Part shown: positions 29,208-54,844 of the stretch, piece by piece
Layout: the number at the start of each line of letters is the position of its first letter
Position numbering within the stretch: the stretch's first letter is position 1
Assembly (NCBI GenBank): GCA_029263455.1
Contig: JAJCXM010000014.1
Span: 248,001-312,000 of the forward strand
From: Holophagae bacterium
GTDB lineage: Bacteria > Acidobacteriota > Holophagae > Acanthopleuribacterales > Acanthopleuribacteraceae
Length of the DNA stretch: 64,000 nt
Direction of reading: 5' to 3'
The notes under the pieces: model-generated
The model's database searches: none
What the model was told of the DNA's origin: nothing
Seen by the model: the letters and a program-made list of their open reading frames with translations, nothing else
Position numbers and translations under genes: made by a program

Positions 29208-30085
29208 TGTTGCTATTATTAGCTCTTCATTTTGTCATCGCGGGCGATACCGAGCTGCTCGCGATCTCTCAGACCCAATCGGTTGCACGCATCGTTTCGC
29301 CTAGCGGCATGTTGTTAAGAGATAGCGAATTCATTGTTTGTACCGGCCGTCTGGATCCTATCCCGAGTATCTTAAGCTGGCCTCTCACCGCTCAACAACC
29401 ACAGCCCAGCCAACAAATTGCGTTGAGTTCTTACTATTTGTACGACCTGTTTGAAGACGAGCAAGGCGCTTGGTTACTCACATCCAAAACATCGCCTTAC
29501 TATTCACAACGAACTATCGAACTACACCAACTGGACTTGGCATCTCGCAACATTGCGTTCTCAGCGCAAGTAGACCTTGCCGAATATTGCAGCGTCAACG
29601 AGTTCTGCCCGCTTAGTAGCGCCGTTACGTTTGCGGACAATATGATTGCGGCCACCAGCGAAACACCCAGTTCATTGCTGATCCTCAAGAAAGACCCTAA
29701 GGGCAGATATGTGGCCAAAACAAGAAGGCATATATCCCTGAATAGGCGCTTCTGTTCAATAAGTGACATATTAATCGTGGAAGACCATCTGTGGTTGCTT
29801 GTCCGCAACCAATGGACGATCGCACGAGCGCCTTTGGCTGAATTAATGGGCGACTCTTACCGCAGTATCGCACTTGAGGGCCTATACAGCTTTGACGACC
29901 TCAAAAAGACGTTTAGCACTCAAAATGGTCTGCACGCAAGCCAAGGCTTGGCTGAAGCGATGACGGTCGATGGTAAAGGCAAGCTATGGTTGCTCTTAAG
30001 TCCAGCCGGCGATGTTTTTAATGAAACAGGTAATGCCCAACCCGTTTTGATAGAAGCCGCCACACGGACAGAGCTGAATCCTTAG
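29207..30085 (+). CDS. Exported protein of unknown function
   Basis: The 292-residue product begins with a hydrophobic leader (MLLLLALHFVIAGD) and continues as a soluble, beta-rich protein. Repeated phrases such as DHLWLLVRN and GKLWLLLSPAGD recall blades of a propeller. I recognise no catalytic site. No clear Shine-Dalgarno site precedes ATG 29207, and the start sits inside an inverted repeat. The end overlaps the converging zinc-ribbon gene by four bases. Confidence 0.65.
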   Translation: MLLLLALHFVIAGDTELLAISQTQSVARIVSPSGMLLRDSEFIVCTGRLDPIPSILSWPLTAQQPQPSQQIALSSYYLYDLFEDEQGAWLLTSKTSPYYSQRTIELHQLDLASRNIAFSAQVDLAEYCSVNEFCPLSSAVTFADNMIAATSETPSSLLILKKDPKGRYVAKTRRHISLNRRFCSISDILIVEDHLWLLVRNQWTIARAPLAELMGDSYRSIALEGLYSFDDLKKTFSTQNGLHASQGLAEAMTVDGKGKLWLLLSPAGDVFNETGNAQPVLIEAATRTELNP

Positions 30086-30381
30086 TCTTGGGGATCCATC
30101 AGACCTGAAAACGGGCATTTGCCACCACTGCCCGTGGTGGCAGAAGTAGATCCGTGCATGTGCGTACGGATAGTTTCCAATGGTGCGGAAGGCACGGTAT
30201 TACCGCCTATTTTTACGCCCAAAGAGCGAACCATTTGAGTTTCTTGCGGATTTGTCCACATCACAAATCCCCAATCACAGCTTGGGCATGCAAATCGCAC
30301 GGAAAAGGTGCCATCCTCTTCCAGCCCTCCAGCTTTATCAAGCTTCATGGGTTCCGTACATTCAGAGCAAACAAATTTCAC
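30082..30381 (-). CDS. Small zinc-ribbon protein coupled to Mrp ATPase
   Basis: The 99-residue product has two CxxC pairs (CSEC at residues 5-8 and CPSC near residue 32) that form a likely zinc ribbon. A conserved-looking stretch NPQETQMVRSLGVKIGG and a Gly/Ser-rich end with KCPFSG follow. Its start overlaps the Mrp-like stop by four bases, so the two are coupled. From memory it resembles the N-terminal part of proteins named PCP reductase family, but the WTPEA-type PCP_red domain itself is missing here. That domain does occur elsewhere in this window. Function unknown; an Fe-S or metal-linked partner of the ATPase is a guess. Confidence 0.7.
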   Translation of the reverse strand: MKFVCSECTEPMKLDKAGGLEEDGTFSVRFACPSCDWGFVMWTNPQETQMVRSLGVKIGGNTVPSAPLETIRTHMHGSTSATTGSGGKCPFSGLMDPQD

Positions 30382-31271
30382 GAAATCTCCTTCGCGGCCA
30401 GTTTATTAAGTAGCTGATCAGCAACTGCGTTAAGTGCTACAGAGGTTGGGGAATGGGGATATTCCTCGGGAAATGAACGACCTTGATCACCGCAGCTAAG
30501 CAGTCTTGGATCGAATGGGATATCTGCGAGCATCGTCAATTGATGCAATTTGGCTTCATCCTCACTTAAGAAAAGGGGCATCAGTCGCTTCGTCGCTGGG
30601 TCAAAATAGTGACGCATATTATAGACGATGCCCAATAACGGTTGCTCCAAAACTCGACGCGCCAGGGTCACCGACTTGCCCACAATTAGCTGAGACAGAT
30701 CCGACCCAATTCCGACAGCTATAAGGTGATCCATACGCTTTAAGGTATCGCACACCATGGTTAAGCGGTCACTTCCCGGAGGCAGATCGATCAAAAGAAC
30801 GTCGAGTTCGCCCCAATCCGTGTCGGCAGCTAATTCGCGCAACGTATTGGCTTCCAGCAAGCCACGCCAAACATGTTGATCGCTCGTTGGACCCTGCCAT
30901 TGCAAAGGATCTTCATCTGCATCCAAAAAAAAGTCCATCGACATGATGCGTATACCGTCTTTTGACAACGCGGGAACGACACCTTTTTCTGAGACGTCCG
31001 GCTTGTGACCTCTGACACCTAATAACTTGGCCATGGATGGGCCATTGAGGTCTGCATCTAAAACGCCGACGCTTTTGCCTCGTATGGCCAGAATACGCGC
31101 CAAATTGGCGGTCACGGTACTCTTGCCTACACCACCTTTACCACTCATGATGCCGAGTATGCAGCCAACTCGACTCAACCTTTGCGACAGACGATCTTGC
31201 TGAGCCTCAACTTGATCTAAGACATGAGAGCCACCATCACCGACGATATCTTTGTATTTGAGTTCAGGCAC
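30378..31271 (-). CDS. Mrp/NBP35-family P-loop ATPase (Fe-S cluster carrier type)
   Basis: The deviant Walker A SGKGGVGKST spans residues 43-52, followed by the MinD/Mrp hallmark DADLNGPSM and a LLIDLPPGS motif. These mark the Mrp/NBP35 branch of the SIMIBI NTPases, which carry Fe-S clusters to apo-proteins. It has no N-terminal DUF59 domain, and the C-terminal CPxC pair of many Mrp proteins is not visible, so it may depend on the adjacent zinc-ribbon protein for cysteines (inference). It lies six bases after a small membrane protein gene and is coupled to the zinc-ribbon gene. Confidence 0.83.
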   Translation of the reverse strand: MPELKYKDIVGDGGSHVLDQVEAQQDRLSQRLSRVGCILGIMSGKGGVGKSTVTANLARILAIRGKSVGVLDADLNGPSMAKLLGVRGHKPDVSEKGVVPALSKDGIRIMSMDFFLDADEDPLQWQGPTSDQHVWRGLLEANTLRELAADTDWGELDVLLIDLPPGSDRLTMVCDTLKRMDHLIAVGIGSDLSQLIVGKSVTLARRVLEQPLLGIVYNMRHYFDPATKRLMPLFLSEDEAKLHQLTMLADIPFDPRLLSCGDQGRSFPEEYPHSPTSVALNAVADQLLNKLAAKEIS

Positions 31272-31276
31272 CCGCT

Positions 31277-31732
31277 TTAACCCAACAGACGTGGAAGAAT
31301 TCCCAGCCCCAGTCCAACGGTCAATCCGTAAGCGATATGTGAAATAACATGGGCGGCCATATCACCGGGTTCCAATTTCTTGAATTGGTCAAGTGGGTGA
31401 TATTGCGATACTGAGATCACCAGGAACAAGGTAACAACCAACCCGTGTACCAAACCCATCAATGTACATGCGACGACGTACACCATCAAACTTCCTTGAG
31501 TGTCGGGTGCGGTCGACAAAAGGAAGGCATAAACATAAGCGAAAAAGATCCCGCCAACAGTGTGTATGATTGTGCCCGGCAATAATGCGTTGTCTGCATT
31601 TCGTGTGATCGAAGAACCGATTGCGCGAATCATCTGTGTTTCTGGCAAATGAAGAAAGCGTGCGCGGCGAAGGAAAAAATTCATCACAACAACGCCCGTT
31701 AATCCGGCAATCAGGGGAAAAAACTCAGCCAT
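31277..31732 (-). CDS. Small four-helix membrane protein of unknown function
   Basis: I start at ATG 31732, where GGAGGT sits four bases upstream; the longer open frame to 31837 has no such site. The 151-residue product has about four transmembrane helices with a GTIIHTVGGIFFAYVYAF segment and a late HVISHIAYGLTVGLGLG segment. Several histidines lie in or near helices. I do not recognise the family. It precedes the Mrp-like gene in the same operon, five bases away. Confidence 0.65.
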   Translation of the reverse strand: MAEFFPLIAGLTGVVVMNFFLRRARFLHLPETQMIRAIGSSITRNADNALLPGTIIHTVGGIFFAYVYAFLLSTAPDTQGSLMVYVVACTLMGLVHGLVVTLFLVISVSQYHPLDQFKKLEPGDMAAHVISHIAYGLTVGLGLGILPRLLG

Positions 31733-31955
31733 AACACCTCCAGGAGCATGTAAGACATTTATGTGTAGGTTAAGGTCACCCCCATTAGAGCACATCCCCT
31801 TTCCAGGCATCAATGTTAATTCGGCGGCAGCGTGCAATCGAGGAAGGCCGCTAGCCTGGGTGGAAAAATACCACCGATATCTCCGATCATCGTTTTAAAG
31901 CTTGGTGAAGATCGCTATGCTAATGCAGTCAAACACGACCGACAAGGACCCAAGA

Positions 31956-32845: not shown

Positions 32846-33118
32846 TTGCGCAGCCTGCCGTGGGCCTTAATCATGGCATTGATACATTTTGTTTGGATGT
32901 TGGTCGCCTTAGTCTTACAAATACTAGGTCGTGAATTCACGATTGTAGACGGCGTCTATCCATTTTCCATCATTGTCTATTTCTGGTTACCTATCTACGC
33001 TCGCGAGATCTGGCAAAACAAATCTAAGAATTTAAAGATAGGCAAGCATACTCAATTAAGCGTGGTCGCGGTCCTGCTCTCATCTATCCTTTACCCCATC
33101 ACATTTCATTGGTGGTAA
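32846..33118 (+). CDS. Small three-helix membrane protein
   Basis: Start uncertain: TTG 32846 follows the previous stop by one base, ATG 32873 is an alternative, and the open frame extends back to 32771. The product has three likely helices (ALIMALIHFVWMLVALVLQI, FSIIVYFWLPIYA and LSVVAVLLSSILYPI). It ends inside the converging GNAT gene (20-base overlap). Family not recognised. Confidence 0.5.
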   Translation: MRSLPWALIMALIHFVWMLVALVLQILGREFTIVDGVYPFSIIVYFWLPIYAREIWQNKSKNLKIGKHTQLSVVAVLLSSILYPITFHWW

Positions 33119-33944
33119 ATATTTGCCATATCTGATGTTCACCTCGCGTTATGAAGCCCTGCGTTTGAAGCAATCCTGTGGCGACACCTTCGTTCCATTT
33201 AATGGCTTCCACGACGCCGTCCGAAGTGGCACAGACATCGATCAATAGGATCGTCGCGGCGGCCAAGCCCGAGCGATCCTGTTCCCAAGCCAGCACTTTA
33301 AGCTGACGAACGCCCTCGAAGTCCCGAAATACAGCGACGGCCTCCAATCGATCCGACACCAGTGCCCAAACGGTCAAATCATCAGCGATTGCGTCTAGTA
33401 CCTGCCGTGCTGAACTCCACGCACAAGGCTTTGCGACCTCCAGCAAGGCGTGATCACACACGTCACGCCACTCCAGTACACTTACATGCGGCCCTGCTCT
33501 AGCTGGCTGAGGCGACCCACGCCAAACCAAGTCCTTAAGAACCGGTGCAACCGGCTCAAAGCCCTGAGCCGAAAACAGTGCCTCTGCAATTTGATGGGTT
33601 ACGGGTATCTCAGCACACACGTGGGCTGGGCCCAGAATGGCCATCTTTCGCAATAACGAATTGATCAGGTGACTGGCATGTCCACGACGTAGGCAGTCAG
33701 GATGAACGCCTACGCGCGATATCCAAGTCGAATCGACACGCTTGCTGCCCACCACAACGGCCACTGGATCGTCGCCTTCAAGTGCAATCATTGAACTACT
33801 TGCCCATAGCTGCAGTTCGTGGACCTCACGTTTGTAGCCACGCACATCTAAAGGAGCTCCCTCAAAATGCGCATCCCAACAATGGTTAATAACGTTTAAT
33901 AACAGGGGTGCATCGTCAGGCCGGCAAAAACGATAAGAAACCAT
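33099..33944 (-). CDS. GNAT-family N-acetyltransferase
   Basis: The N-terminal half carries a GNAT domain: RPDDAPLLLNVINHCWD at the start and the acetyl-CoA loop VGVHPDCLRRGHASHLI, an R/Q-x-x-G-x-G/A variant, near residues 77-93. The C-terminal half (from ~145) looks like a second, degenerate GNAT-like domain, making it a tandem of 281 residues. Substrate unknown. It starts two bases after the radical SAM stop, making it the last gene of the hemY operon. Confidence 0.75.
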   Translation of the reverse strand: MVSYRFCRPDDAPLLLNVINHCWDAHFEGAPLDVRGYKREVHELQLWASSSMIALEGDDPVAVVVGSKRVDSTWISRVGVHPDCLRRGHASHLINSLLRKMAILGPAHVCAEIPVTHQIAEALFSAQGFEPVAPVLKDLVWRGSPQPARAGPHVSVLEWRDVCDHALLEVAKPCAWSSARQVLDAIADDLTVWALVSDRLEAVAVFRDFEGVRQLKVLAWEQDRSGLAAATILLIDVCATSDGVVEAIKWNEGVATGLLQTQGFITRGEHQIWQIFTTNEM

Positions 33945-33946
33945 CG

Positions 33947-35263
33947 TCAGTTATCAGCCCTGAATCGTTTAATAAACGAAGGCACGCCGCCCATTCGGCC
34001 ACCCATCTTTTCACGAATCTCGTTCATCATCTCTACGGTAATAATGCTCGCATTACGTTCGCTCGCATATGTCTCCACCCGTTGTACAACCATGCCGCGT
34101 ACGAACGACGGGATCCGCTCCAGCCGTTGTTTCGCTGCAGGTGTCCAAGTAATGGAAGAGGCGACGGCTGCGCCATATGTCACTGCCGGACGAGGTAGAT
34201 TTACTTCTCCCAATGATCCTGGTTCATAAACGCACCAAGGATCTTCGGCCATCAAATCGTGTTTAGAACCCAACGATCTGGCTCTACAACCCCCACACAC
34301 TTCGGCAAATTCACAGCCTCCGCATCGGCCACCAAGTTGGCTGCGATCCCGTATTGTTCGAAACACGTCCGAGTCATTCCATATATCGGCAAAACTTTTG
34401 TCTCGCAGATTGCCGCCGTACTCAGGAATGTAAGGACATGGGGTCATATCACCATTGGGTCGAATACCACAGTAGTGCGTGCCAGCAGGACACCCGCCAG
34501 CTCCGGATCCATAAGCCTTTAGCATGTCTGACTGAGGTTCATTTTGGTACAGGACACGCTGATAATGGGGCGCACACTTCGAGTTAACTAACATGCGACC
34601 GCGGTAGGTCTTCTGTAAATGATAGAGCCGCTGCATGATAGCTTCATATTCGTCAGGCGATACGTCTGTAACGTAGCTACCACGGCCAGTGGCGACCAAA
34701 AAATAGACGTTAAATACGCGGGCGCCCAATTGATGTGCAAATTCCGCGATTGCTTCAAGGTCAGCTGCATTATGACGCGCAACGGTGGTTTGGATAATGT
34801 AAGGGATGTCCCGATCAGCCAGTAACCGCGCGCCTTGGACCGTATTGTCAAATGCACCTTTGACGCGTCTAAACCAATCGTGCTTTTCCGCTGATAACGC
34901 ATCTAAGGACAAGCTCAATCCCTTTATAGAGGCGGCTTCAACGCGGTCAAGTAACTTTTCGCTAATCAAAACACCATTGGTGCCCACGACAACCCACAAG
35001 CCACGTTGTCCGGCGTGTTTCGCGATTTCAAATACATCCGGCCTCAGAAACGGCTCGCCACCCGTCAAGATTAGAAGGGCATTGGCATTGACTTCCACGA
35101 TTTGGTCGATTACTTGGAAACATTCCGCGGTAGTCAGTTCACCATCCAACTCTTTCTTGTCTTTGATCGGTCCTGCGTCGATGTAACAGTGATCGCATTC
35201 AAGATTACAGCGTTTCGTGATATTCCAGGAGATCACGTGTGACGTAAAGGCTGCTAAATCCAA
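33947..35263 (-). CDS. Radical SAM/SPASM protein with C-terminal PCP_red-like domain
   Basis: A TTG start follows the hemY stop by one base. The radical SAM cluster motif is Cys19, Cys23 and Cys26 (CNLECDHC), with the GGEP motif near residue 65. A SPASM-type region with many cysteines (CPAGTHYCGI...CPYIPEYGG...CGGCEFAEVCGGC) occupies ~265-335. The domain style recalls AhbC/AhbD/NirJ enzymes of haem and haem d1 synthesis. From Trp373 a PCP_red-like domain follows (WTPAAKQRLERIPSFVRGM...), the small domain named after protochlorophyllide reductase. Next to hemY this suggests a job in tetrapyrrole metabolism, but a peptide-modifying role cannot be excluded. Confidence 0.8.
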   Translation of the reverse strand: MDLAAFTSHVISWNITKRCNLECDHCYIDAGPIKDKKELDGELTTAECFQVIDQIVEVNANALLILTGGEPFLRPDVFEIAKHAGQRGLWVVVGTNGVLISEKLLDRVEAASIKGLSLSLDALSAEKHDWFRRVKGAFDNTVQGARLLADRDIPYIIQTTVARHNAADLEAIAEFAHQLGARVFNVYFLVATGRGSYVTDVSPDEYEAIMQRLYHLQKTYRGRMLVNSKCAPHYQRVLYQNEPQSDMLKAYGSGAGGCPAGTHYCGIRPNGDMTPCPYIPEYGGNLRDKSFADIWNDSDVFRTIRDRSQLGGRCGGCEFAEVCGGCRARSLGSKHDLMAEDPWCVYEPGSLGEVNLPRPAVTYGAAVASSITWTPAAKQRLERIPSFVRGMVVQRVETYASERNASIITVEMMNEIREKMGGRMGGVPSFIKRFRADN

Positions 35264-35264
35264 A

Positions 35265-36677
35265 CTAGGAGGCCTCGCCCACAGCGTTTTCGTCCTGTAA
35301 ATCTACCTCTTTCAGTATTTGTGTAGCCGCTTGCCGTGCAAGATGCACACAGTCCGGTATGCCCACACGTCCAAGTGCATTACCCAGAATATGCAGACCT
35401 TTATGTTGCTCAACCATTGACTGGATTCGCTTTAGTTTAATGTGATAGCCAGGTTCAAATTGGGGCATCGCTCTGGGGAATCTAAACAGGAAGGTATGTT
35501 TGGGAGCCTGGCTAACTAATCCTAGTCTCTTCAAGCTGTTATGCGCCAGATCTTCCAGGCTGCCGGCACCCTCATCCTTACAACGAACAAAGGCCCGGAT
35601 CGCTGTCATATCGGCCGGAAAGCGATCAGGGAATTTTCCACTCATGAAATTTGCTGCCACTAAGGATCCGCCTTCCTGTTTGCCTGAAAAGAATCCGAAC
35701 GAGGATTGTGGAACCTTGGTAGCCGATTTTTCATACAAAAATGTCACCGTCGCACAAGACGCGTAAGCTTGCTGCTTGAGCGTATCGGATAGCTCAGGTA
35801 ATTGGCCGCTCAATAAGCGAGCAATTTCGTGACCGGGACATGCCAGTACCAGGTGATCGGCTGCTAGTCTTCTACCATCGTCCAATCCAATTTCCCAGCC
35901 GGCAGAGCGTCGCTGTATGTGTCTCACCGTGGCATTGGTTTCTAGACAATCTTTGGGGATCCGCGCAACAAGCGCCTTGATCAAGGCGAACATGCCATTT
36001 TTCAAAGCGACAAAAGCGGGCTTAGAGTTTTGGGCATGACGTGACTCAGCCAGTTTCTTGAGGCCTTGGGTCACGCTGCCATGATTTGATTCAAGGTCCA
36101 GGAAAGCTGGCATTGTTTGCCGCAAACTCATGGACTCAGCCTCACCCAAAAAGAGTCCAGCCATGACTGGTTCCGCAGCTCGCTCGAGGATTTCACGCCC
36201 AAATCGTCGGCGCACAAAAGCAGCGATTGATTCATCTTGCGTTTCAACACCACGAGACGGAATATGTGGTTCTTGAAGTGCTCGCCATTTACCGCGCCAG
36301 CTAAACAAAGGAGAGCGCAAGAAGGCAGCTTTGTCCGTCGGAGCCATCATAAAGAAGCCCTTAGGTAAAGCTTCTAGTTTCCCTCGATGGGCGACATACA
36401 AGTCTCGTGAACGCGGATCAAGACCCTTCAAATCATCAAGCAGCCCCAATTCACGACATAGATCAAGGGCCGCAGGTTTCCTTGCCAATAATGTGTCTGG
36501 TCCCGCTTCAAGGACACCCTGAGCATGATTAACCGTTTGCACCAAACCACCAAAGCGGTCGCCTGACTCCAACAGGGTCAAATCCACAGATCGACCGGCA
36601 AGACGATGAATATCGTAGGCCGTTGTTAGACCAGATACGCCGCCACCAACCACTACGACACGAGTTCGCTGCAACAA
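35265..36677 (-). CDS. hemY: Protoporphyrinogen/coproporphyrinogen oxidase, HemY type
   Basis: TTG starts at 36677 or 36674 are supported by AGGAG just upstream. The FAD-binding Rossmann motif GGGVSGL is at residues 11-17, followed by the dinucleotide-site acid in LLESGDRFGG. The 470-residue length and the late motif with LGNALGRVGIPDCV fit the oxygen-dependent HemY/HemG(PPO) family, which oxidises protoporphyrinogen IX or coproporphyrinogen III in haem synthesis. It heads an operon with a radical SAM protein and a GNAT. Haem supply fits the very haem-rich gene island that follows. Confidence 0.87.
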   Translation of the reverse strand: MLQRTRVVVVGGGVSGLTTAYDIHRLAGRSVDLTLLESGDRFGGLVQTVNHAQGVLEAGPDTLLARKPAALDLCRELGLLDDLKGLDPRSRDLYVAHRGKLEALPKGFFMMAPTDKAAFLRSPLFSWRGKWRALQEPHIPSRGVETQDESIAAFVRRRFGREILERAAEPVMAGLFLGEAESMSLRQTMPAFLDLESNHGSVTQGLKKLAESRHAQNSKPAFVALKNGMFALIKALVARIPKDCLETNATVRHIQRRSAGWEIGLDDGRRLAADHLVLACPGHEIARLLSGQLPELSDTLKQQAYASCATVTFLYEKSATKVPQSSFGFFSGKQEGGSLVAANFMSGKFPDRFPADMTAIRAFVRCKDEGAGSLEDLAHNSLKRLGLVSQAPKHTFLFRFPRAMPQFEPGYHIKLKRIQSMVEQHKGLHILGNALGRVGIPDCVHLARQAATQILKEVDLQDENAVGEAS

Positions 36678-36812: not shown

Positions 36813-37382
36813 TCAAATCAAGGAGTTCAAATCCAAGATTAATTGATCCACCGAAGTTGCGTCTGTCCCGAGGTAATAACCACGGATCTGTCCTTGCCCA
36901 TCGACCAGCGCAAAGCGTTGACTATGGGCAATCACGTCATCGGGGTTACCCATCTTAAAGCCCTCAACCGTCAGCTTCAGTACCTCTTCTTCGGGCGCAT
37001 GTAAAAAATGCCATTGCCTGGTGTCGGCATCAAAGCGCTTCGCGTAATCTGCCAAGATCGCGGGCGTGTCATAAGCCGGATTCACTGATATGCTGACCTG
37101 GTGAACACGACTAACTGACCGAAATTGGTGGTGAATGCGCGACATTTGTTGCGCCATTGCGGGACATGGGCCCGGACAGGTTGTGAAGATGAAGTCCACC
37201 ACCCAAACTTGGCCCCTTAAATTTTCAAGTCCAAAGTCTTGCTCACTTGTATCTGTGAACTGAAATGATGGCACCGATCCCAGTACAGGCAGGACGGTGG
37301 CGTTCGACTTTAGAAAGATTCGCAGTCCCAATCCCATGGAGATTAGGAAAAATATGGCAATTACAGCAATCAACCCACGCAT
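36813..37382 (-). CDS. SCO1/SenC-family copper chaperone
   Basis: A single N-terminal membrane anchor (residues ~3-22) holds a thioredoxin-like domain in the periplasm. The copper site CPGPC is at residues ~69-73 and the third ligand His is in the AHSQRF motif near residue 157. SCO proteins load copper into the CuA centre of oxidase subunit II. It is the last gene of the first oxidase cluster, 68 bases after coxB, which fits that role. A second SCO gene serves the other cluster at 50.9 kb. Confidence 0.88.
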   Translation of the reverse strand: MRGLIAVIAIFFLISMGLGLRIFLKSNATVLPVLGSVPSFQFTDTSEQDFGLENLRGQVWVVDFIFTTCPGPCPAMAQQMSRIHHQFRSVSRVHQVSISVNPAYDTPAILADYAKRFDADTRQWHFLHAPEEEVLKLTVEGFKMGNPDDVIAHSQRFALVDGQGQIRGYYLGTDATSVDQLILDLNSLI

Positions 37383-37450
37383 GTTCTCTCCTTAAAGGGA
37401 GCATTCTACCCCAAGACCATCAGCCAAGGGGTAGCGTTGTTGGCGTCAGG

Positions 37451-38221
37451 TTATTCCCAGAAATCATCGCCCTCTTCTTCTTCGGCGAGTAATGCTGCTT
37501 CCTCATCAAGCCAAGCTTGATAACCCGCGCTATCGTGGACCGTGACATAACCCTTCATGCGGTAATGGCCTAAACCACAGAGCTGAGCACAGGCTATTTC
37601 GTAGTTACCTTCCGTGATGGGCGTAAACCAGACCGGTATGCTCATGCCGGGAATAATATCCTGTTTGATGCGCATTTCAGGAATACCAAAACTGTGAATC
37701 ACGTCTTTTGAACTCAAATGGATAATGACCGGTTTGTCGTTCTCTAAGTGCAATTGATTAATTGTTGTTACATCATCAGCCGCAGCCGGATCGTCGCGGT
37801 CTAAACCAATTGGATTCGTCTCGTTATTTACCAATTCAAAGGAGGTTTTACCAAACACGCCATCGGGTCCCGGATAATGAATATTCCAGGCAAATTGTTC
37901 AGCAACCAGTCGCACCACATTGGTGTCTTGGGTGGGAAACTCATTGACTCGTTTGGCCCAAAGTGGAATTGAAAAACCAATCAGAAGTACGGCCTCAATG
38001 ACGGCGACGACCACTTCTAAATAGGTCGAGAACTTACCCTTGGCGCCTGCATAGTTAGCTGGACCAGGACGAGAGCCCCGAAATTTGATGAGCGTCAAAA
38101 TAAAGAAACCGCCCCAAAAAATGAACAAAGCAAACATGAGGTAGTGAACATACCCAATTAGTTGGTCGATTTCAGCACCATGAGCCGACGCAATATCTGG
38201 CATTCCCCAAAACTTATCCAT
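37451..38221 (-). CDS. coxB: Cytochrome c oxidase subunit II (CuA, no cytochrome c domain)
   Basis: Two transmembrane helices (~20-45 and ~68-90) precede a cupredoxin domain. The CuA ligands are in CAQLCGLGHYRM (two Cys, one His, one Met) with the upstream His in VIHSFG. It accepts electrons from a soluble or attached cytochrome c. Unlike the subunit II at 51.7 kb it has no haem domain. The C-terminus is strongly acidic (EEEEGDD...). It lies downstream of two small membrane genes in the order coxA-coxC-coxD-orf59-orf79-coxB-sco. Confidence 0.92.
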   Translation of the reverse strand: MDKFWGMPDIASAHGAEIDQLIGYVHYLMFALFIFWGGFFILTLIKFRGSRPGPANYAGAKGKFSTYLEVVVAVIEAVLLIGFSIPLWAKRVNEFPTQDTNVVRLVAEQFAWNIHYPGPDGVFGKTSFELVNNETNPIGLDRDDPAAADDVTTINQLHLENDKPVIIHLSSKDVIHSFGIPEMRIKQDIIPGMSIPVWFTPITEGNYEIACAQLCGLGHYRMKGYVTVHDSAGYQAWLDEEAALLAEEEEGDDFWE

Positions 38222-38240
38222 TTAGTCCCTCACTTAGCAT

Positions 38241-38480
38241 TCAATTGACTCTTTGACATAATTTGGCTCGATGCCAGAGTACGAAGATAAATCCTGCAAT
38301 GGTCATTAAGACCATGAGAATGATGACGAGCAAAAAGGCAATAGCCATACTCATCCCTTGCACCTGCGGTGATTCGATATTGCCATAACAAACATCACAG
38401 GCCAGCAGTTGCCACCCAAAAAAGAAACCTGCCATCAGGATCCACCTTGGATTAGCCAAACGCAATCGCCGATTAGACAT
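38241..38480 (-). CDS. Small membrane protein with CDVC motif, oxidase cluster
   Basis: The 79-residue product has a first hydrophobic stretch (residues ~14-27) ending in CDVC (Cys28, Cys31), then a second helix (~44-70) and a basic tail. The CxxC could bind a metal such as copper. It starts within the end of the 59-residue gene upstream (8-base overlap) and lies 19 bases before coxB, so it is part of the oxidase operon. I recognise no named family; an assembly role is inferred from position only. Confidence 0.65.
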   Translation of the reverse strand: MSNRRLRLANPRWILMAGFFFGWQLLACDVCYGNIESPQVQGMSMAIAFLLVIILMVLMTIAGFIFVLWHRAKLCQRVN

Positions 38481-38652
38481 GACGGAATTTTCCGATGATC
38501 TTTATTCCATAGACCACCAACAAAACAGCCGCCACTAGTGAGCCCCAACCCAGGACCGTATTTTGACCCTGGCGCAGGGACCAAATGCCAAAAAACACAG
38601 CACAAGCGATGGACGCTACAATAAAGACATAGTGGAAAAATTTAAGTGACAT
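38473..38652 (-). CDS. Tiny membrane protein (59 aa) in oxidase operon
   Basis: A 60-codon frame fits exactly between coxD and the next small gene: its ATG lies one base after the coxD stop, and its stop overlaps the next ATG by eight bases. The product is two helices (YVFIVASIACAVFFGIW and GWGSLVAAVLLVVYGI) with a basic end. Codon placement and the membrane pattern support a real gene. A small accessory subunit is possible. The ribosome site is weak, consistent with coupled translation. Confidence 0.6.
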   Translation of the reverse strand: MSLKFFHYVFIVASIACAVFFGIWSLRQGQNTVLGWGSLVAAVLLVVYGIKIIGKFRHV

Positions 38653-38653
38653 A

Positions 38654-38953
38654 TCAAAGATGGATAGGATCTAGCGATTGTCCCGTTGGCAGGAACATTA
38701 GTCCAATAAAGAACAAAGCCGCGATCAACAGGGTGTAATAGATCAGTTTCTTTTCTGAGATCAAGTGCATAAAGTAAGCCGCAACCAGAGATGCCTTAAT
38801 AGTCGCAATCACCAGTGCCAACACAATATTCATGGTATGGCCCATATCCACATAGCTGATCCCAACCGTAACACCGGTCAGAAACAACAACACGACAAAG
38901 ACCATCACATAAGTTCGTACATGTTTTTTGATGTCTTCTACAGAATCACCCAT
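38654..38953 (-). CDS. coxD: Cytochrome c oxidase subunit IV (prokaryotic type)
   Basis: The 99-residue product has three transmembrane helices and the family motif around IATIKASLVAAYFMHL (residues ~50-65). Prokaryotic subunit IV stabilises the oxidase core. It follows coxC after nine bases. Its homologue at 54.8 kb carries an extra cytochrome c domain, which this one lacks. Confidence 0.9.
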   Translation of the reverse strand: MGDSVEDIKKHVRTYVMVFVVLLFLTGVTVGISYVDMGHTMNIVLALVIATIKASLVAAYFMHLISEKKLIYYTLLIAALFFIGLMFLPTGQSLDPIHL

Positions 38954-38962
38954 AAGTGCCTC

Positions 38963-39553
38963 CTACAGTAAGTAAAGGACGGGAAACAAGAATATCCAGA
39001 CAAGATCCACAAAGTGCCAATAAAGGCCCACAATCTCGATCCGGTTGGTGAAATGCTCAGGTTCAGTCTTCCACATCTTCGCGCCCGGACCCCAGAAATA
39101 AGCAAATACGATCATGCCGCCTAAAACGTGCAGACCATGTAAGCCCGTTAAGGTGAAATAGATGGCCATGAAGGTGCTCTCACTTGGGAACAGCCCATGA
39201 TGGAACTTCGTATTGTACTCGTACGCCTTGACACACATGAATGTGAGCCCAAGCAAAAAGGTTATCAGGATGTACATCCGACCTTTGGATAAGTTGCCCA
39301 TTTTTAATGACGCCCAGGCCATGATGACCGTGATTGACGAAGAAATCAGGACCACCGTATTGAATGCCGCGATCGGTACCGATAAGATCGTGGAACCCAC
39401 TGGCCAGTCGACCGAATTCACGCGCAACAATATATACGATGAGAACAACGCGCCAAACAGCATCACTTCAGACGCCAGAAACAACCAAATACCAAGTTTA
39501 GAGTTGATTAGCCCCGTATCAGGGCGTGGCTTCACCGTGTAAGGAATAAGCAT
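38963..39553 (-). CDS. coxC: Cytochrome c oxidase subunit III
   Basis: Five transmembrane helices over 196 residues with the family signatures: [18 protein letters not shown] near residue 22 (conserved Glu), [12 protein letters not shown] in the middle and [16 protein letters not shown] at the end. Subunit III keeps the oxidase stable and feeds proton uptake. It lies three bases after coxA. The length of ~200 is normal for the short bacterial form. Confidence 0.93.
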
Positions 39554-39556
39554 GGA

Positions 39557-41311
39557 TTAAACCTCCGCCGCTTCGCACTGAGGCGTGTAATCTTTTTCGG
39601 CGCCGGGCACACTATATTCATAGGGACCACGATAAGCGACCGGTGGCGTATCAAAATTGCCATGAGGAGGAGGCGAAGGGGCTTCCCACTCCATGGTTGT
39701 TGATTGCCATGGGTTGCGATCTACTTGCTTCCCTTTCCAGATGGAATAGAAGAAGTTGATTATGAAAGGCAACTGAAAGACCGCAAGCAGCCAAGCGGCA
39801 TGTGACATGGCCGCATTGTAGTGCAGGACCGGTTCAGCGAATTCATAGGACGCGCCACCGTCATACAAGCGACGGGACACCCCTGCTAAGCCTTGAATTA
39901 ACATTGGGAAAAAGATCATGTTCATGCAGACGATTGAGCCCCAGAAGTGAACCTTTCCCCAAAATTCGTTCATGATGCGACCTGTCGCTTTCGGGAACCA
40001 ATAATAAATACCGGCAAACAGCGCCAACAAGGTGCCAGGCGCAACGACATAATGGAAGTGCCCAATAACGTAATAGGTATCGTGGAGCGGAATGTCGGCT
40101 GCCGACAATCCCAGAGGTAAACCCGTCAATCCACCGATTCCGAACATCGGTAAAAAGCCTAGAGCAAACAACATGCAGGTATTGAAACGTATTCTGCCAC
40201 CCCACAACGAAATGAAGAATACGGTTAGGATCACGACCGACGGAATCGAAATGATCATGGTTGTCGTTTGAAAAAACGCACTTATCGTCGTACCCATGCC
40301 CGTTAAGAACATGTGGTGAGCCCAAACAATGAACGACATGAATCCGAGGAAAATTAATGAATACACCGCAGATTTATAACCAAACAAAGGCTTACGGCTG
40401 TTATTAGCGATGATTTCCGCCACGATTCCCATGGCTGGCAATATCAACACATAAACTTCAGGGTGAGCCAAGAACCAAAAGAGGTGCTGCCACAGCAGCG
40501 GACTGCCACCACCACTCACCTGCAAGGCGTCGCCCGTCACCACCAAACCGGTAGGCAGGAAGAATGACGTATCAGCAAGACGATCCATCAACTGCATGAC
40601 ACCTGCCGCTTCTAGCGGCGGGAATGCCAACAACAGTAAGAATGCAGTCACTAACTGGGCCCATACGAAGAAGGGCATACGCATGTAGGTCAAACCCTCA
40701 ACGCGTAGCTGAATGATGGTCACAATGAAGTTCACCGAACCCAACAACGACGATGTAATCAGGAAGATCATCCCAATCAGCCAATAGGTTTGACCGGCGG
40801 TTGCGATATCCGATAATGGTGGATAGGAAGTCCAACCGGAGTTCGCAGCACCGCCCGGAGCCATAAAACTGTACAACATGACAACGCCACCGGCAAAGAA
40901 GCTCCAATAACTGGCCATATTCAATTTAGGGAATGCCATGTCCGGTGCCCCGATTTGAAGCGGGACGACAAAGTTACCAAAGGCTCCAACGGCCAGTGGC
41001 ACGACGCCTAAAAACACCATAATCGTGCCGTGCATTGCACCCAGGCTGTTATAGAACTCAGGGAGCATAACCCCGCCTGGCATGGTCGCATCCGAGAAAA
41101 GGCTACCGAAAATAGGTAACGCTTGTCCCGGATAAGCCAATTGCCAACGCATTAACATCATCAGGCAAAAGCCAAAGAATAGGAAAACCAGTGCCGTTAA
41201 ACCGTACTGGATACCAATCACTTTGTGATCGGTTGAGAAGACGTAGGCTTGCCAGAACCCTAGTTTAGGGTGTTCGTTGGCGTGCTCGTCGTGATGATCG
41301 GATTGACTCAT
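39557..41311 (-). CDS. coxA: Cytochrome c oxidase subunit I, A1-type haem-copper oxidase
   Basis: The 584-residue protein has about twelve helices and all key sites. A haem a His is in AMHGTIMVF. His283-Pro-Glu285-Val-Tyr287 (HPEVY) gives a CuB His, the D-channel glutamate and the cross-linked Tyr. A HH pair in WAHHMF and the haem ligands in HDTYYVIGHFHYV complete the set. The Glu marks a canonical A1-type proton pump. It is transcribed from a cupredoxin-like gene through coxC, coxD, two small genes, coxB and sco. No haem A synthase gene (ctaA/ctaB) is nearby. Confidence 0.95.
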   Translation of the reverse strand: MSQSDHHDEHANEHPKLGFWQAYVFSTDHKVIGIQYGLTALVFLFFGFCLMMLMRWQLAYPGQALPIFGSLFSDATMPGGVMLPEFYNSLGAMHGTIMVFLGVVPLAVGAFGNFVVPLQIGAPDMAFPKLNMASYWSFFAGGVVMLYSFMAPGGAANSGWTSYPPLSDIATAGQTYWLIGMIFLITSSLLGSVNFIVTIIQLRVEGLTYMRMPFFVWAQLVTAFLLLLAFPPLEAAGVMQLMDRLADTSFFLPTGLVVTGDALQVSGGGSPLLWQHLFWFLAHPEVYVLILPAMGIVAEIIANNSRKPLFGYKSAVYSLIFLGFMSFIVWAHHMFLTGMGTTISAFFQTTTMIISIPSVVILTVFFISLWGGRIRFNTCMLFALGFLPMFGIGGLTGLPLGLSAADIPLHDTYYVIGHFHYVVAPGTLLALFAGIYYWFPKATGRIMNEFWGKVHFWGSIVCMNMIFFPMLIQGLAGVSRRLYDGGASYEFAEPVLHYNAAMSHAAWLLAVFQLPFIINFFYSIWKGKQVDRNPWQSTTMEWEAPSPPPHGNFDTPPVAYRGPYEYSVPGAEKDYTPQCEAAEV

Positions 41312-41356: not shown

Positions 41357-42055
41357 TTATTTAGAAGGCATCGAAAAAGAAAAATCGACGGCTTTACTCT
41401 CGTCCTTAGTGATCGTAACCTTCTGGGTACTGGTCCCTAACTTCTCATGCCAGACTTCAACTTCATAGGTGCCAGCATCTAGTCCTTTAATGGCGAACTT
41501 GCCGTCTTCGCCGGTCACGTCAAAGAACGGATGGCTAGAGACGCCAATGAAACTCTTCATCCATGGATGAACATTACATTTAACTTCGATCATTAATTCT
41601 TCACGAGTGAATTTCTGTTCCGACTCACGCAGAGAGGTCGGCATCCCCAAGTTAAAACCACGATTCTCTTTGGCTTTCACGTTGACGTTATGTAACGTAT
41701 CGTCTGAATTCTTGAAGAGGAATGTTTGATCGACCATAACTCCAACAACATGCGGGTGATACACACAGCCTTTTTGGTCCATGACTGCAGATTCTGAAGG
41801 AGTGGGGTACGTTTTGTCAGCTAATCCACTGGAAATACGTACAAAGATATTGGCCATCGTATTGCCTTCGCCTAAGACCAAAGTCTCAGCGCGGGCAGCA
41901 TCACCTGTATATGCAGCTGCGCAAACAGGGTCCGCATCCATTTTTAATGCTTTCATCTTAGGAGCATTGCCATCCCACTTCACTACTCCAGTAATTTCAC
42001 CGGCAAAAACGACTGATGTCAGCATCAGCCCCATCATAATTACGCGAATCTTCAT
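41357..42055 (-). CDS. Exported cupredoxin-like protein with carboxypeptidase-regulatory-like C-terminus
   Basis: I use ATG 42055, eight bases after GGGAGAG, rather than TTG 42070. A signal peptide (MKIRVIMMGLMLTSVVFAG) leads a 232-residue protein. The middle holds plausible copper ligands: His in CVYHPHVV, His in DDTLHNVNV, Cys and His in VKCNVHPWM. The order is that of plastocyanin-like or methylamine-utilisation proteins. The last ~80 residues (VTGEDGKFAIKGLDAGTYEVEVWHEKLG) look like a CarboxypepD-regulatory fold. It lies 45 bases upstream of coxA behind its own likely promoter. It could carry electrons or copper to the oxidase. Confidence 0.75.
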   Translation of the reverse strand: MKIRVIMMGLMLTSVVFAGEITGVVKWDGNAPKMKALKMDADPVCAAAYTGDAARAETLVLGEGNTMANIFVRISSGLADKTYPTPSESAVMDQKGCVYHPHVVGVMVDQTFLFKNSDDTLHNVNVKAKENRGFNLGMPTSLRESEQKFTREELMIEVKCNVHPWMKSFIGVSSHPFFDVTGEDGKFAIKGLDAGTYEVEVWHEKLGTSTQKVTITKDESKAVDFSFSMPSK

Positions 42056-42144
42056 GAACAGCTCTCCCAATATTTTGAATAGGCCAGAAAAGCTCGAAAA
42101 CTTCGCTGACCCAAGTAACTTTTAATTAGCAAAAATGCCACTCC

Positions 42145-42176: not shown

Positions 42177-42704
42177 TCACTTGTTAGCTGTCAATGCGCT
42201 GGCGACTGATTTATTGTCGACGGCATAAACTAAGAAGCCATTTTGAAAATAATAGATGGCACTTGGCGGATTGGCAGCCCGTGATCCAAATAAGACAACG
42301 GGTTCGTCGCGGTAAAGCCAGCTCTCAATCACACCCATGCGATGGTCCACTTGGTGTATCTCGGTTGCCATTGGCATGATGCACAAGAAGATCTCTTGGG
42401 ACATACCCACATGGATCAATCCGCTTGCTACCTGATCCCATTGCTCTGGCGTGAAATCGTATTTCAGATAGGGATCTTCGCGAAAGGCGTAATCGTCGGT
42501 GAAGTCGGCTTTAAGGTAGTACTTCTTGTTGTCACTGAGAATGACACGTACTTCCTTCATCATGATTTCCCGCGCCTTTAAGACCTCCATCTTTGAGGCG
42601 AACGGGAGTCCATAACCCTTGGCCATCCCGTATCCAACCCACAACGTATCGCCAGGATTGATGCCGTCACCTGAAAGCCAGAGGCACAAACATAGAATCA
42701 TCAT
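42177..42704 (-). CDS. Exported protein of unknown function, end of cytochrome operon
   Basis: The ATG overlaps the stop of the cytochrome gene upstream (TGATG). The 175-residue product starts with a hydrophobic leader (MMILCLCLWLSG) and is then soluble with no cysteine pair or haem site. I recognise no family. Its place as the last gene of a tightly coupled operon suggests a periplasmic accessory part of the same complex. Confidence 0.65.
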   Translation of the reverse strand: MMILCLCLWLSGDGINPGDTLWVGYGMAKGYGLPFASKMEVLKAREIMMKEVRVILSDNKKYYLKADFTDDYAFREDPYLKYDFTPEQWDQVASGLIHVGMSQEIFLCIMPMATEIHQVDHRMGVIESWLYRDEPVVLFGSRAANPPSAIYYFQNGFLVYAVDNKSVASALTANK

Positions 42705-44380
42705 CAGACGGCTAACTCTTCAGACTGAGGGTTGCTCTGCTCTGGTGCTTCAAGCGCTCTACGCTTAGCGGTGCGGGTGGCCCACCATAAGAAGAGCAGC
42801 GTCAAGGCGACGGCAGCCGCAGTCTTGACATAAACCTTCTTATCGACAGGCTGTTCTAAATTCAAAAAGTACCAAGAAGAAATACAGGCTTTGGCATCGC
42901 TGTCTTGGCGGTGTCCATCCCAAGCCCAAAATAGCATGGGCACAAAACGGCCCGGCTCAAGCTGAATATCGTTATCGGAACCGCCTTGCAGATCACGCGT
43001 TAGCATCAATCGGTATTGGCCGTTGCGGTAGTGAAGTTGACCTTTGATTTCCAAAGCCTCGCTATTCTCGCTCACCTTATCGCGGCCTTTCGCAATCTGG
43101 TTACTGATGGATACCGGCCCCACAAATTCCGTCCACAGGTTCTGATGTCCGGTTTGTCCATCAGCGGCCGCTTCTACAGCAGTCAGAGAACCATCATGCG
43201 ACCAGCGCCAGAGGTTTACAGCGTTTTTATCGTCACCCATTACAAAGTAAGGGCGTTCATTGTCTGCCGGAATGCCTGTTGGAAATTGAATCGCAAATTG
43301 ATCAGGTAAGACAGACACGTTTGAGCTTTCTTCTTCGTCAGAGAAGAAGTCGTCAAAATCGCCTTCTTCCTCACTTCCCTCTTCTTCAAAGCCCCAATCG
43401 TCATCATCGCTCGCGGCCTCGGGCGCACTTGCCCCTTCGAAGCTATACGAAGGATCATCCCACTCACATAAAAGGACCAACTTAGTGCCGTCATGAACGG
43501 CACGTACGCTAACGCTACGAATCATGGGATGAGTGTTGACCGGGTCCCACATCATTTGTCCTGTCAATGGGAAATAGGCCTTTTGAGCCGTATCCCAAAT
43601 TTCGTCATCCATCGTCTGCGGTAACTCGTCAACCAAAGCGCCGGTTACTTGAGGGGAAGTCGGGTATTCTTCTGCACTCGAGAGACTGGCTACATAAGCA
43701 GCTAGATCCCAACGATCATCGACAGAAATAGCGTCTGCAAATGAGGCCATCGGTGTGCCTGAAATGCCGGTCGTAAACGCTTTAAAGATGTCCTCTAAGC
43801 TATGGCCGGAGCGGAACTCCCAGCCACGATGTAAATTCGCTGGCAGAATGGCGGCATCGTAATCATCAACTAAGGTCAAGGCTGAAGGCCCATCAGCGCG
43901 GCCCTGATATCCATGACAATCACCGCAGCCACTTTCCAAATACACTTCTCTACCATGAGCGATTTTGGCGTCATTTATTTTGGGTGGGTTTCCGGTCTCA
44001 GCCACCTGTGGTGGATAAAAACCTTCCTCTTTATCGCGATCGATAGTGGCCTGATAAAAAGGCTGGATGTGTTTGACTACCGCATTCACTTTGGCGTCGC
44101 CAATATGACCAAAAGCGGGCATGGACGTACCTGGGATACCATCGCGCACGACGCGAATCAAATCTTCTTCCTGAGGGAGTTGACCCGATTGCGTGGAGCG
44201 GAACTTAAATACGCCCGTGGTGAAATCACGCGGTTTAGGATCCACAAAATCAGCGGCCGGACCATCTCCAGCACCCTGATCACCATGACACTGAGAGCAG
44301 TACTTATCGTAAACCGCAGTTCCTTCATCCGTTTGCCCAAATAGGAGCAACGACACACTCAACACAAGCAGGACTTTCAT
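42704..44380 (-). CDS. Dihaem cytochrome c fused to ethylbenzene-dehydrogenase-type haem domain
   Basis: ATG 44380 overlaps the upstream stop (TAATG) and has a GGGGG-rich ribosome site; a longer frame to 44461 lacks one. After the signal peptide, two cytochrome c domains show CxxCH at Cys28 (CSQCH) and Cys152 (CGDCH). From about residue 250 the sequence (WDTAQKAYFPLTGQMMWDP...) matches the haem-b-binding gamma-subunit domain of ethylbenzene dehydrogenase/NxrC-type proteins. It is interrupted near residues 335-365 by a very acidic insert rich in D and E. A single C-terminal helix (~525-545) anchors it, with a cytoplasmic end. It should relay electrons in the periplasm. Confidence 0.8.
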   Translation of the reverse strand: MKVLLVLSVSLLLFGQTDEGTAVYDKYCSQCHGDQGAGDGPAADFVDPKPRDFTTGVFKFRSTQSGQLPQEEDLIRVVRDGIPGTSMPAFGHIGDAKVNAVVKHIQPFYQATIDRDKEEGFYPPQVAETGNPPKINDAKIAHGREVYLESGCGDCHGYQGRADGPSALTLVDDYDAAILPANLHRGWEFRSGHSLEDIFKAFTTGISGTPMASFADAISVDDRWDLAAYVASLSSAEEYPTSPQVTGALVDELPQTMDDEIWDTAQKAYFPLTGQMMWDPVNTHPMIRSVSVRAVHDGTKLVLLCEWDDPSYSFEGASAPEAASDDDDWGFEEEGSEEEGDFDDFFSDEEESSNVSVLPDQFAIQFPTGIPADNERPYFVMGDDKNAVNLWRWSHDGSLTAVEAAADGQTGHQNLWTEFVGPVSISNQIAKGRDKVSENSEALEIKGQLHYRNGQYRLMLTRDLQGGSDNDIQLEPGRFVPMLFWAWDGHRQDSDAKACISSWYFLNLEQPVDKKVYVKTAAAVALTLLFLWWATRTAKRRALEAPEQSNPQSEELAV

Positions 44381-45153
44381 TAGTGTCCCCCTTCCGCTGC
44401 CGAAGTCTGGCTGCGCGGCTCTTTGCCGATCGCATCGTATAAGTACATGATGACAGACCAAATCTCATTCTCTGTCAGGCGTCCCTCCCAAGCAGGCATG
44501 GCGGAGTTCCATGGCGTCGCCTCGCGAGGCAAGCCCGGTCCGCCTTTAGCGATGCGCCAGAACACGTAGGACTCAGACAAAATAGCCAAGGTCTCATCAC
44601 CGGTGAACTTGGCTGGTCTTGGTACGTATCCGCGTGCAAAGTGTCCGTCACCTTCCCAGGTATCACCATGACAAAAGAAACATTTTTCGTAATAGACTTT
44701 CTTGCCAACGGCCAAATGTTCGGCGTACTTTTCGTGATCCGCGCGCAACGGATTACGCTGCGTGATCATATCGATCGTTTTGCCATTGAATTGGATGGAA
44801 TCGGGATTGGCTGGATGCACCGTTCGGAACGGTGGCGGCGCTTCCGTCTTTGGGCTGACCATCTGGTAGGTCTTGTAGCCCGCAAACAAAGGCAAGACAA
44901 CCAGAGCCACGCTGCGCACCGTCTTGTGCAACGGGGTCAAAGCAATCAGTGTTTCGTAGATGGGGCGTTTGAACTCGTTCCACATGTCGTCACTAGAGGC
45001 CGCATACAGAAAAACGACTCCCAAGGTGATGACCATATATTGAGTGACTAGAGATGACGGGATGGGTTTGCTTAAAAAGCCAATTCCATACGTGTAAAAC
45101 AGGTAAGCCAACACAAGCAGAATAAAGGTGCGGAATAAGGGGTTCTTGGTCAT
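44380..45153 (-). CDS. Membrane-anchored monohaem cytochrome c
   Basis: The 257-residue product starts with three hydrophobic segments (residues ~8-26, ~38-52 and ~80-97). The cytochrome c domain has CFFCH at residues 158-162 and a Met in NSAMPAWEG that may be the sixth ligand. It overlaps the CydA-like gene by four bases upstream and the dihaem gene downstream. It probably forms the link between the CydA-like membrane protein and the dihaem cytochrome in one complex (inference from gene order). Confidence 0.8.
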   Translation of the reverse strand: MTKNPLFRTFILLVLAYLFYTYGIGFLSKPIPSSLVTQYMVITLGVVFLYAASSDDMWNEFKRPIYETLIALTPLHKTVRSVALVVLPLFAGYKTYQMVSPKTEAPPPFRTVHPANPDSIQFNGKTIDMITQRNPLRADHEKYAEHLAVGKKVYYEKCFFCHGDTWEGDGHFARGYVPRPAKFTGDETLAILSESYVFWRIAKGGPGLPREATPWNSAMPAWEGRLTENEIWSVIMYLYDAIGKEPRSQTSAAEGGH

Positions 45154-49777: not shown

Positions 49778-49869
49778 ACACCTCTCCTTAAGTGGCGGAC
49801 CCAGGTCCCAAAAGGCGACCAAAATCCTAACTTCTTGATGAATTTTCTGATGGCTACTTTACTGCACCT

Positions 49870-49967: not shown

Positions 49968-50717
49968 GTGAACGTGTTACGCGGCAAGACATTCAAATTC
50001 TCATTCGAAAAGACGTTTCTTGCCCTGCTCGCAGGAATCACCTGTTTTGCCATGAGCTACTGGCAACATACACGTTACCTTTCCAAGCAAGTCTTTTTTG
50101 AACGACTTGAGGCCATGAGCGCGGCCGGCACTCAGGTGTTTGATCCATCAACTAAGGATTGGGACGCGCTTGTCTACGCATCAATCAAAGTGAGTGGAAC
50201 CTGGGACCACGACGGCGAAATCCTCATCATGAATCGTTCGCTCAACGATCAACCTGGCGTTAAACTGATCACACCATTAAAGGTAGAAGGTACAGACAAA
50301 AGATTGATGGTCGATCGCGGATTTGTGCCTTACGAAATGGCTCAAGACGAGGGGCTGAAAACCTACCATTCAGATGGAATAGTGCAGATAGAAGGTCTGG
50401 TTCGACCCAGCCAAGTACCCCAATTCCTTTTTGCCACACCAGCCGTCTCTGCAGCCGATGCCAGCCGAAAACACTGGTTGCGCGTTGACCTCGATGAGCT
50501 GGCCAAAGGTAGGTCATACGAGTTGTTTCCCGTATTCATAGAAAACACGAAAGCCGTCGCTGGCGGTCCCATCCCCTTTGAACAAGTGGAATTACCTGCA
50601 AGTCGTCATCTCAACTACACCTTGCAGTGGGCCAGTTTCGGATGCTTCGCTCTTTTTCTTGGCTTCTTCTTCCAATTCAAGCGCCGCAAGGTAATGGCGG
50701 CACACAAGAGCGCCTGA
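49968..50717 (+). CDS. SURF1-family cytochrome oxidase assembly protein
   Basis: GTG starts at 49968 or 49974 are both possible. The 249-residue product has an N-terminal helix (~15-30), the long periplasmic SURF1 domain with VDRGFVPYEM near residue 118, and a C-terminal helix in the family motif HLNYTLQWASFGCFALFLGFFF. SURF1 helps place haem a into subunit I. It leads the second oxidase cluster, 142 bases before the SCO gene, which fits that role. Confidence 0.88.
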   Translation: MNVLRGKTFKFSFEKTFLALLAGITCFAMSYWQHTRYLSKQVFFERLEAMSAAGTQVFDPSTKDWDALVYASIKVSGTWDHDGEILIMNRSLNDQPGVKLITPLKVEGTDKRLMVDRGFVPYEMAQDEGLKTYHSDGIVQIEGLVRPSQVPQFLFATPAVSAADASRKHWLRVDLDELAKGRSYELFPVFIENTKAVAGGPIPFEQVELPASRHLNYTLQWASFGCFALFLGFFFQFKRRKVMAAHKSA

Positions 50718-50859
50718 GCTTCAAATTTCGCACAACTAATGGCTAAATCTCCTTGAAAAATAGGCACCATTACCGCTATGATCTTCCCCCGAGCGCGTCC
50801 AGTCGGATTTACTGTTCCGTCCATTGAATATACTGCGCAAACGGGGTCTGGTTCATATC

Positions 50860-52594: not shown

Positions 52595-52607
52595 AGGAGC
52601 CTCTGGA

Positions 52608-54218: not shown

Positions 54219-54232
54219 CGAAGGATTGAACT

Positions 54233-54832: not shown

Positions 54833-54844
54833 TGAGGTGGCAAC

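Follow-up and report, generated by a model that had tools for sequence, protein, structure and literature searches.

A radical SAM–PCP_red fusion from a conserved gene set: a probable producer or carrier of a special haem for a cytochrome bd-like oxidase

Introduction

Among the radical SAM/SPASM enzymes that act on tetrapyrroles are the haem b synthase AhbD (TIGR04545) and NirJ of haem d1 synthesis (TIGR04051). In dark protochlorophyllide reductase, the PCP_red domain has a role in ring binding. The substrate site of this reductase, located in BchNB, is treated in an excerpt of PMC7948495. A 2026 trait study counts PF08369, the Pfam model of PCP_red, among the commonest phototrophy-linked Pfams and uses it in a phototroph pre-screen, as stated in an excerpt of PMC12815261.

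In the present work, a gene was analysed in which a radical SAM/SPASM protein carries a PCP_red domain, and which lies in a module with a cytochrome bd-like subunit I. Within the cytochrome bd superfamily, the groups OR-C and OR-N, associated with Murali et al. 2021, are reportedly c-linked and devoid of a quinol site. We know of no maturation genes of c-linked bd-type oxidases and, to our knowledge, the route of haem d synthesis is known in no organism. For OR-N, use of cytochrome c is given as probable in an excerpt of the Nitrospinota paper PMC10839748.

Results

The window, i.e. the whole 64,000-nucleotide stretch of DNA that was analysed, contains on its minus strand an open reading frame of 438 aa with a TTG start (33947..35263), designated rSAM-PCP; the plus-strand frame of the same interval is full of stops. 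Three domains were assigned with Pfam: Radical_SAM at residues 14–176 (78.3 bits, cut-off 29.5), SPASM at residues 258–317 (38.2 bits, cut-off 21.5) and PCP_red at residues 373–416 (55.0 bits, cut-off 32.5), the latter starting with Trp373. The radical SAM motif C19-X3-C23-X2-C26 (CX3CX2C) and the C-terminal cysteine motif C314-X2-C317-X5-C323-X20-C344 were both invariant in an alignment of seven sequences; CX3CX2C and the C-terminal motif CX2CX5CX20C are given for AhbD of M. barkeri in an excerpt of PMC3942049. rSAM-PCP is separated by a gap of one base from hemY, which ends at 35265. The domain make-up with PCP_red from Trp373 and the gap to hemY, as stated in the original prediction, were thus confirmed by ORF and Pfam analysis, the minus strand having been left unmentioned there. 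Its view that the fusion is not a standard one holds insofar as no family model among those searched describes a radical SAM–PCP_red fusion; it does not hold with regard to distribution, as the fusion is conserved across at least three phyla (Acidobacteriota, Gemmatimonadota and Chloroflexota).

The surrounding module genes are likewise encoded on the minus strand and, unless otherwise stated, were assigned by domain scan. At lower coordinates than rSAM-PCP lie a small CxxC/CPF protein of 99 aa without PCP_red (30082..30381; ORF and comparison with relatives), an Mrp/NUBPL-type Fe–S P-loop ATPase belonging to the module (30378..31271; domain scan and NCBIfam), a small membrane protein which, in the window's genus, separates mrp from rSAM-PCP (31277..31837) and a GNAT acetyltransferase, which is a module member in many Acidobacteriota (33099..33944). 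At higher coordinates, hemY (35265..36677; TIGR00562) is followed by a cytochrome oxidase operon adjoining the module, with coxA, coxC, coxD, coxB and an SCO1-like gene (36813..41311), and by a carboxypeptidase-regulatory-like domain protein conserved beside this operon (41357..42070). Two cytochromes conserved in the module come next, one with two cytochrome c stretches and an ethylbenzene-dehydrogenase-type (EB_dh) domain (42704..44461), the other a cytochrome c that begins with a membrane-like stretch at its N-terminus (44380..45153). The cytochrome-bd-like subunit I (CydA-like, 849 aa, 45150..47699) carries C-terminal cytochrome c domains, and uspPCP3 (697 aa, 47729..49822) comprises two Usp and three PCP_red domains (Pfam) as well as a CxxC pair and, close to its end, a CPF motif. 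This second PCP_red protein and the oxidase module had gone unmentioned in the original prediction. A second cytochrome oxidase operon (49968–55636), divergent to the module, encodes SURF1, SCO, CoxB with cytochrome c, CoxA, CoxC and CoxD with cytochrome c.

In NCBIfam searches, rSAM-PCP of the window scored highest with AhbD (319.9 bits), NirJ2 (TIGR04055; 299.3 bits) and TIGR04053 (275.5 bits), without reaching the respective cut-offs of 500, 500 and 395 bits; NirJ (193.3 bits, cut-off 515.45, also not reached), a haloarchaeal pseudo-SAM family (187.7 bits), NirJ1 (184.5 bits) and AhbC (161.4 bits) followed, and the peptide maturases came last, with MftC at 144.6 bits and the others below. 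Nine further fusion proteins gave the same three leading families, AhbD being the best profile in six and NirJ2 in three of them (L054, L057, L043). No scanned fusion protein passed any family cut-off, and the reaction is therefore not readable from the sequence. L010, which was scanned together with the fusions, is a NirJ2 above its cut-off.

A radical SAM tree of 74 rows, containing neither AhbC nor any AhbD above cut-off, united the 34 fusion rows in one clade of their own (ultrafast bootstrap 96), the support of which is modest in view of an SH-aLRT of only 66; one of these rows, L086, is long-branched. The clade stands beside, and not inside, the AhbD-like rows (402–499 bits) and next to the TIGR04053 rows. 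NirJ2 and NirJ fall within the same large group, NirJ on a separate branch with 100/100 support that it shares with one pseudo-SAM row. MftC and PqqE lie outside; their long branches join, which the program flagged as possibly false, the fusion clade being unaffected. By profile scores and tree position, the radical SAM part is assigned to the haem-pathway enzymes AhbD, NirJ2 and TIGR04053, apart from MftC and PqqE, in agreement with the resemblance originally predicted. No grouping with peptide-modifying enzymes that have a precursor nearby was observed, the scan of neighbours being systematic for ORFs of 80 aa or more only.

The AlphaFold model, computed from seven sequences, reached a pLDDT of 68 and a pTM of 0.67, with the linker 324–366 below 50, and therefore gave no usable domain orientation. 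Comparison with the PDB using Foldseek confirmed the general radical SAM fold, with SkfB, PqqE and BlsE ranking first; haem enzymes were not among the matches, which were peptide and nucleoside/sugar radical SAM enzymes instead, and this model-based fold match is taken as uninformative on the substrate.

The window copy of hemY is a divergent protoporphyrinogen oxidase gene (229.2 bits with TIGR00562, cut-off 97.85; 228.7 bits in the genome-wide search), the other hemY of the home genome, on contig C35, reaching 326.8 bits. HemN (577.1 bits) and HemH were found in the same genome (G000), in which HemF and ChdC gave no match. As a complete ordinary haem route is therefore present elsewhere in the genome, the window hemY is a second, extra copy, and with HemN, HemH and a second HemY at hand, replacement of a lost hemN by the fusion was ruled out for the home genome. 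A check for missing haem genes (hemN, ahb) had been proposed: hemN is present, and AhbA/AhbB (PF17805) gave no match in the home genome, so that haem is not made there via siroheme. With PF17805 in one of 18 module carriers, the siroheme (Ahb) route was ruled out.

Two hemY copies, one of them adjoining the fusion, also occur in G198 from the window's genus and in G116 from another family. The adjacency is limited to this genus and G116, where the gene order is swapped, and hemY coupling as a general rule was ruled out accordingly. From this coupling, tetrapyrrole modification or repair had been predicted; a second, dedicated hemY fits a tetrapyrrole role, but the link is local, and evidence in support of repair was not obtained. 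In G008 (L143:6563-9246), a radical SAM/SPASM protein without PCP_red adjoins a second hemY, forming a parallel radical SAM–hemY pair.

Haem genes near the module differ between carriers. In G167, the stretch upstream of the module (L135:6442-11662) codes for HemH and HemY together with a ChdC-like fragment and a class-III aminotransferase, presumably HemL, and another ferrochelatase is found elsewhere in the genome; hemC lies near the module in 3/12 Gemmatimonadota loci. Among 17 carriers tested, HemN was above cut-off in nine, HemF was present in five and a chlorite-dismutase-family match in seven (three of them weak), and G213, G237, G248 and G249 had neither HemN above cut-off nor HemF and lacked a strong ChdC. 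The haem b routes underlying the module thus differ from carrier to carrier. This argues against a plain haem b step, although a strong alternative is missing in the four genomes just named.

The home genome (6.2 Mb) has four PCP_red matches, all of them in rSAM-PCP and uspPCP3, and a PCP_red-bearing BchB is therefore absent from it. In Acidobacteriota, uspPCP3 is a conserved neighbour of the CydA-like gene, and in Gemmatimonadota it takes a more divergent form; the stress-protein list used for checking the CPF motif held one entry (L050) that is a spurious match to the small protein. Most relatives of the small CxxC protein contain PCP_red (55.3 bits with Pfam in L055), the signature being detected by regular expression in 21 of 24, and the window copy ends after its CPF motif without a C-terminal PCP_red. 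A short ORF in G028, a genome without the CydA-like gene, encodes a fusion-type PCP_red without the radical SAM part (L088:2987-3262) and is either a stand-alone domain or a remnant.

Thirty genomes with PCP_red loci were fetched; they were chosen for their PCP_red matches, so the following counts are biased, several contigs end inside the module, and the clustering, which also took in antisense ORFs, was used solely for those clusters that match the window. The fusion was found in 29 of the 30, cydA in 28, the Usp-PCP protein in 27, the two cytochromes in 26 each and the small protein in 24, followed by Mrp (22), coxB (19), coxA and coxC (18 each), the carboxypeptidase-regulatory-like protein (16) and GNAT (14).

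Co-occurrence was assessed in 247 Acidobacteriota genomes, a CydA-like protein being called at E below 1e-80 and weaker matches (E 2.7e-15 and above) being scored absent. PCP_red was detected in 29 genomes, CydA-like in 26 and both in 25, which belong to 12 families; 25/26 genomes with CydA-like thus contained PCP_red, compared to 4/221 without (Fisher p = 5e-29, shared ancestry ignored). The four exceptions with PCP_red are G028 and three genomes of one family, whose PCP_red frames of 557–569 aa have BchB-like ends, and the sole genome with CydA-like and without PCP_red, G226, is 77% complete. The fusion itself is present in 24/26 genomes with CydA-like versus 0/221 without, sharing the contig of cydA in 21 of the 24 (within 13 kb in 18, at 25–29 kb in three) and lying on a different contig in G008, G172 and G246; in G222, which has CydA-like and PCP_red, no fusion was seen.

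For Gemmatimonadota, the phylum of G247, named from the organism of L007, 200 genomes were searched, with PCP_red in 73 and CydA-like in 52. All 52 genomes with CydA-like contained PCP_red, compared to 21 of 148 without (Fisher p = 3e-31, shared ancestry ignored). These 21 include G249 as well as G265, the match of the latter lying near a contig start; the other 19 mostly have one or two PCP_red matches, and in the subset inspected, L061 combines a nitrogenase-type domain with PCP_red and L062, L064, L067 and L070 have BchB-like ends. In 11 of the 12 fetched Gemmatimonadota loci cydA is located directly downstream of the fusion, and the called frames of the two genes overlap by 4 bases in L072. 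Outside the window's genus and G116, the gene next to the fusion is either bd-like cydA or that of the small PCP_red protein. A conserved gene set, of which the fusion is a member, travels with this unusual bd-like respiratory oxidase.

The CydA-like protein of the window matched Cyt_bd_oxida_I with 79.3 bits (cut-off 26.2). Positions E107, H186, R391, W441 and R448 of E. coli CydA align in all 11 module sequences compared, M393, E445 and the Q-loop residues K252/E257 are not conserved in them, and the position of H19 is occupied by His in nine and by Lys in the two of the window's genus. The pattern fits a bd-type core that would take electrons from cytochrome c.

Discussion

The PCP_red module with its fusion protein probably produces or delivers a special haem for the bd-like oxidase. 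It is best explained as a system dedicated to this oxidase that modifies or supplies haem, in which PCP_red would serve as a tetrapyrrole-handling domain and the chemistry is inferred. That rSAM-PCP in particular is a radical SAM enzyme which acts on tetrapyrroles, forms a sister to AhbD/TIGR04053 and serves specifically the bd-like oxidase's cofactor is given about even chances. Its Fe–S sites would then generate a radical acting on a porphyrin or haem side chain, comparable to AhbD on iron-coproporphyrin III, while its PCP_red domain may bind or position the tetrapyrrole and subsequently pass the ring on. The PCP_red domains carried by the stress-protein homologue and the small CxxC protein could form a relay, the Mrp-type ATPase might be a source of Fe–S clusters or of energy, and the product would be inserted into the CydA-like subunit; a second hemY, or the hemC or chdC-hemH-hemY sets nearby, may supply the precursor where present. 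Substrate, reaction, relay and target are what we infer from the observed domain make-up, family placement, module conservation, co-occurrence and second hemY, and the same co-occurrence would equally be expected with another module protein as target. The separate contigs of fusion and cydA in G008, G172 and G246, as well as G222 without the fusion, stand against a dedication to CydA. A wider proposal, that c-linked bd-type oxidases receive a modified haem (a haem d-like chlorin or a new side-chain-modified haem) which the module synthesizes and inserts, PCP_red being a domain for tetrapyrrole handling in general, common to chlorophyll synthesis and respiration, is put forward as an unlikely, speculative extension.

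Several other functions were weighed. An AhbD-like coproheme decarboxylase, forming haem b without oxygen and paired with HemY/CgoX and ferrochelatase, would agree with AhbD as the best profile, with the AhbD cysteine motif in rSAM-PCP, with the four tested carriers devoid of HemN above cut-off, HemF and strong ChdC, and with the neighbourhood of hemY and a radical SAM/SPASM protein in G008. However, HemN, HemH and another HemY are already available in the home genome, HemF or ChdC in other carriers, rSAM-PCP falls outside the AhbD-like group, and a general haem b enzyme would not be expected to track one oxidase; we consider this function quite improbable. SPASM proteins often modify peptides, and a maturase introducing a crosslink or other change into a module protein (CydA-like, a cytochrome or the small CxxC protein) would suit both the top folds SkfB and PqqE and the tight genetic link with a protein complex. 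It is nevertheless judged unlikely, as the scores with peptide-maturase profiles (at most 144.6 bits) are far lower than those with the haem profiles, MftC and PqqE lie outside in the tree, and neither a PqqD-like domain nor a precursor-like gene was present among the scanned neighbours; a peptide maturase is disfavoured by profile scores and tree.

Radical chemistry might also be dispensed with altogether, rSAM-PCP being an assembly factor or haem carrier whose PCP_red and Fe–S sites serve haem delivery or redox sensing. Two partners with PCP_red and no enzyme domain, and CPF motifs in part of the set, would be consistent with such a role, but the CX3CX2C and SPASM cysteines are invariant in the seven aligned sequences, and the role is held to be very unlikely.

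A gene set travelling with one c-linked bd-type oxidase is a direct, testable candidate for its maturation. Moreover, PCP_red alone is an unsafe marker of phototrophy, since in the present case the domain points to a respiratory module, in a genome without PCP_red-bearing BchB; PF08369 matches of the module would give false leads in a phototroph pre-screen such as that in the excerpt of PMC12815261. Searches of the open-access literature for PCP_red with radical SAM, for PF08369/IPR013580 and for the combined gene names gave no description of the system, and among the matches listed there for bd-like oxidases and haem d nothing on it was seen, so that a PCP_red module for a respiratory oxidase appears to be undescribed there.

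Comparison with known systems

The CydA-like subunit is putatively akin to the c-linked cytochrome bd branch (OR-C/OR-N), with which it shares the Cyt_bd_oxida_I domain, c-type cytochromes, conservation of H186 and E107 and the lack of quinol-loop residues. With BchB/ChlB of dark protochlorophyllide reductase, rSAM-PCP shares a C-terminal PCP_red with an IP.FVR-type signature; BchB carries this domain on a nitrogenase-type domain (as in the BchB-like control L061), which rSAM-PCP does not possess. NirJ is likewise a tetrapyrrole radical SAM/SPASM enzyme, but differs by its separate branch and by a score of 193.3 of 515.45 bits. NirJ2 and TIGR04053, a gene of the latter family following nirS in Thermus (L123), are the second and third best profiles and belong to the same large tree group, whereas their fetched reference members lack PCP_red. 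AhbD has the radical SAM/SPASM architecture and the motifs CX3CX2C and CX2CX5CX20C in common with rSAM-PCP and gives the best-scoring profile; rSAM-PCP differs from it by a score below cut-off (319.9 vs 500), a separate clade, the additional PCP_red domain, the link to a bd-like oxidase and a home genome without AhbA/AhbB. rSAM-PCP is a variant of the AhbD/NirJ kind.
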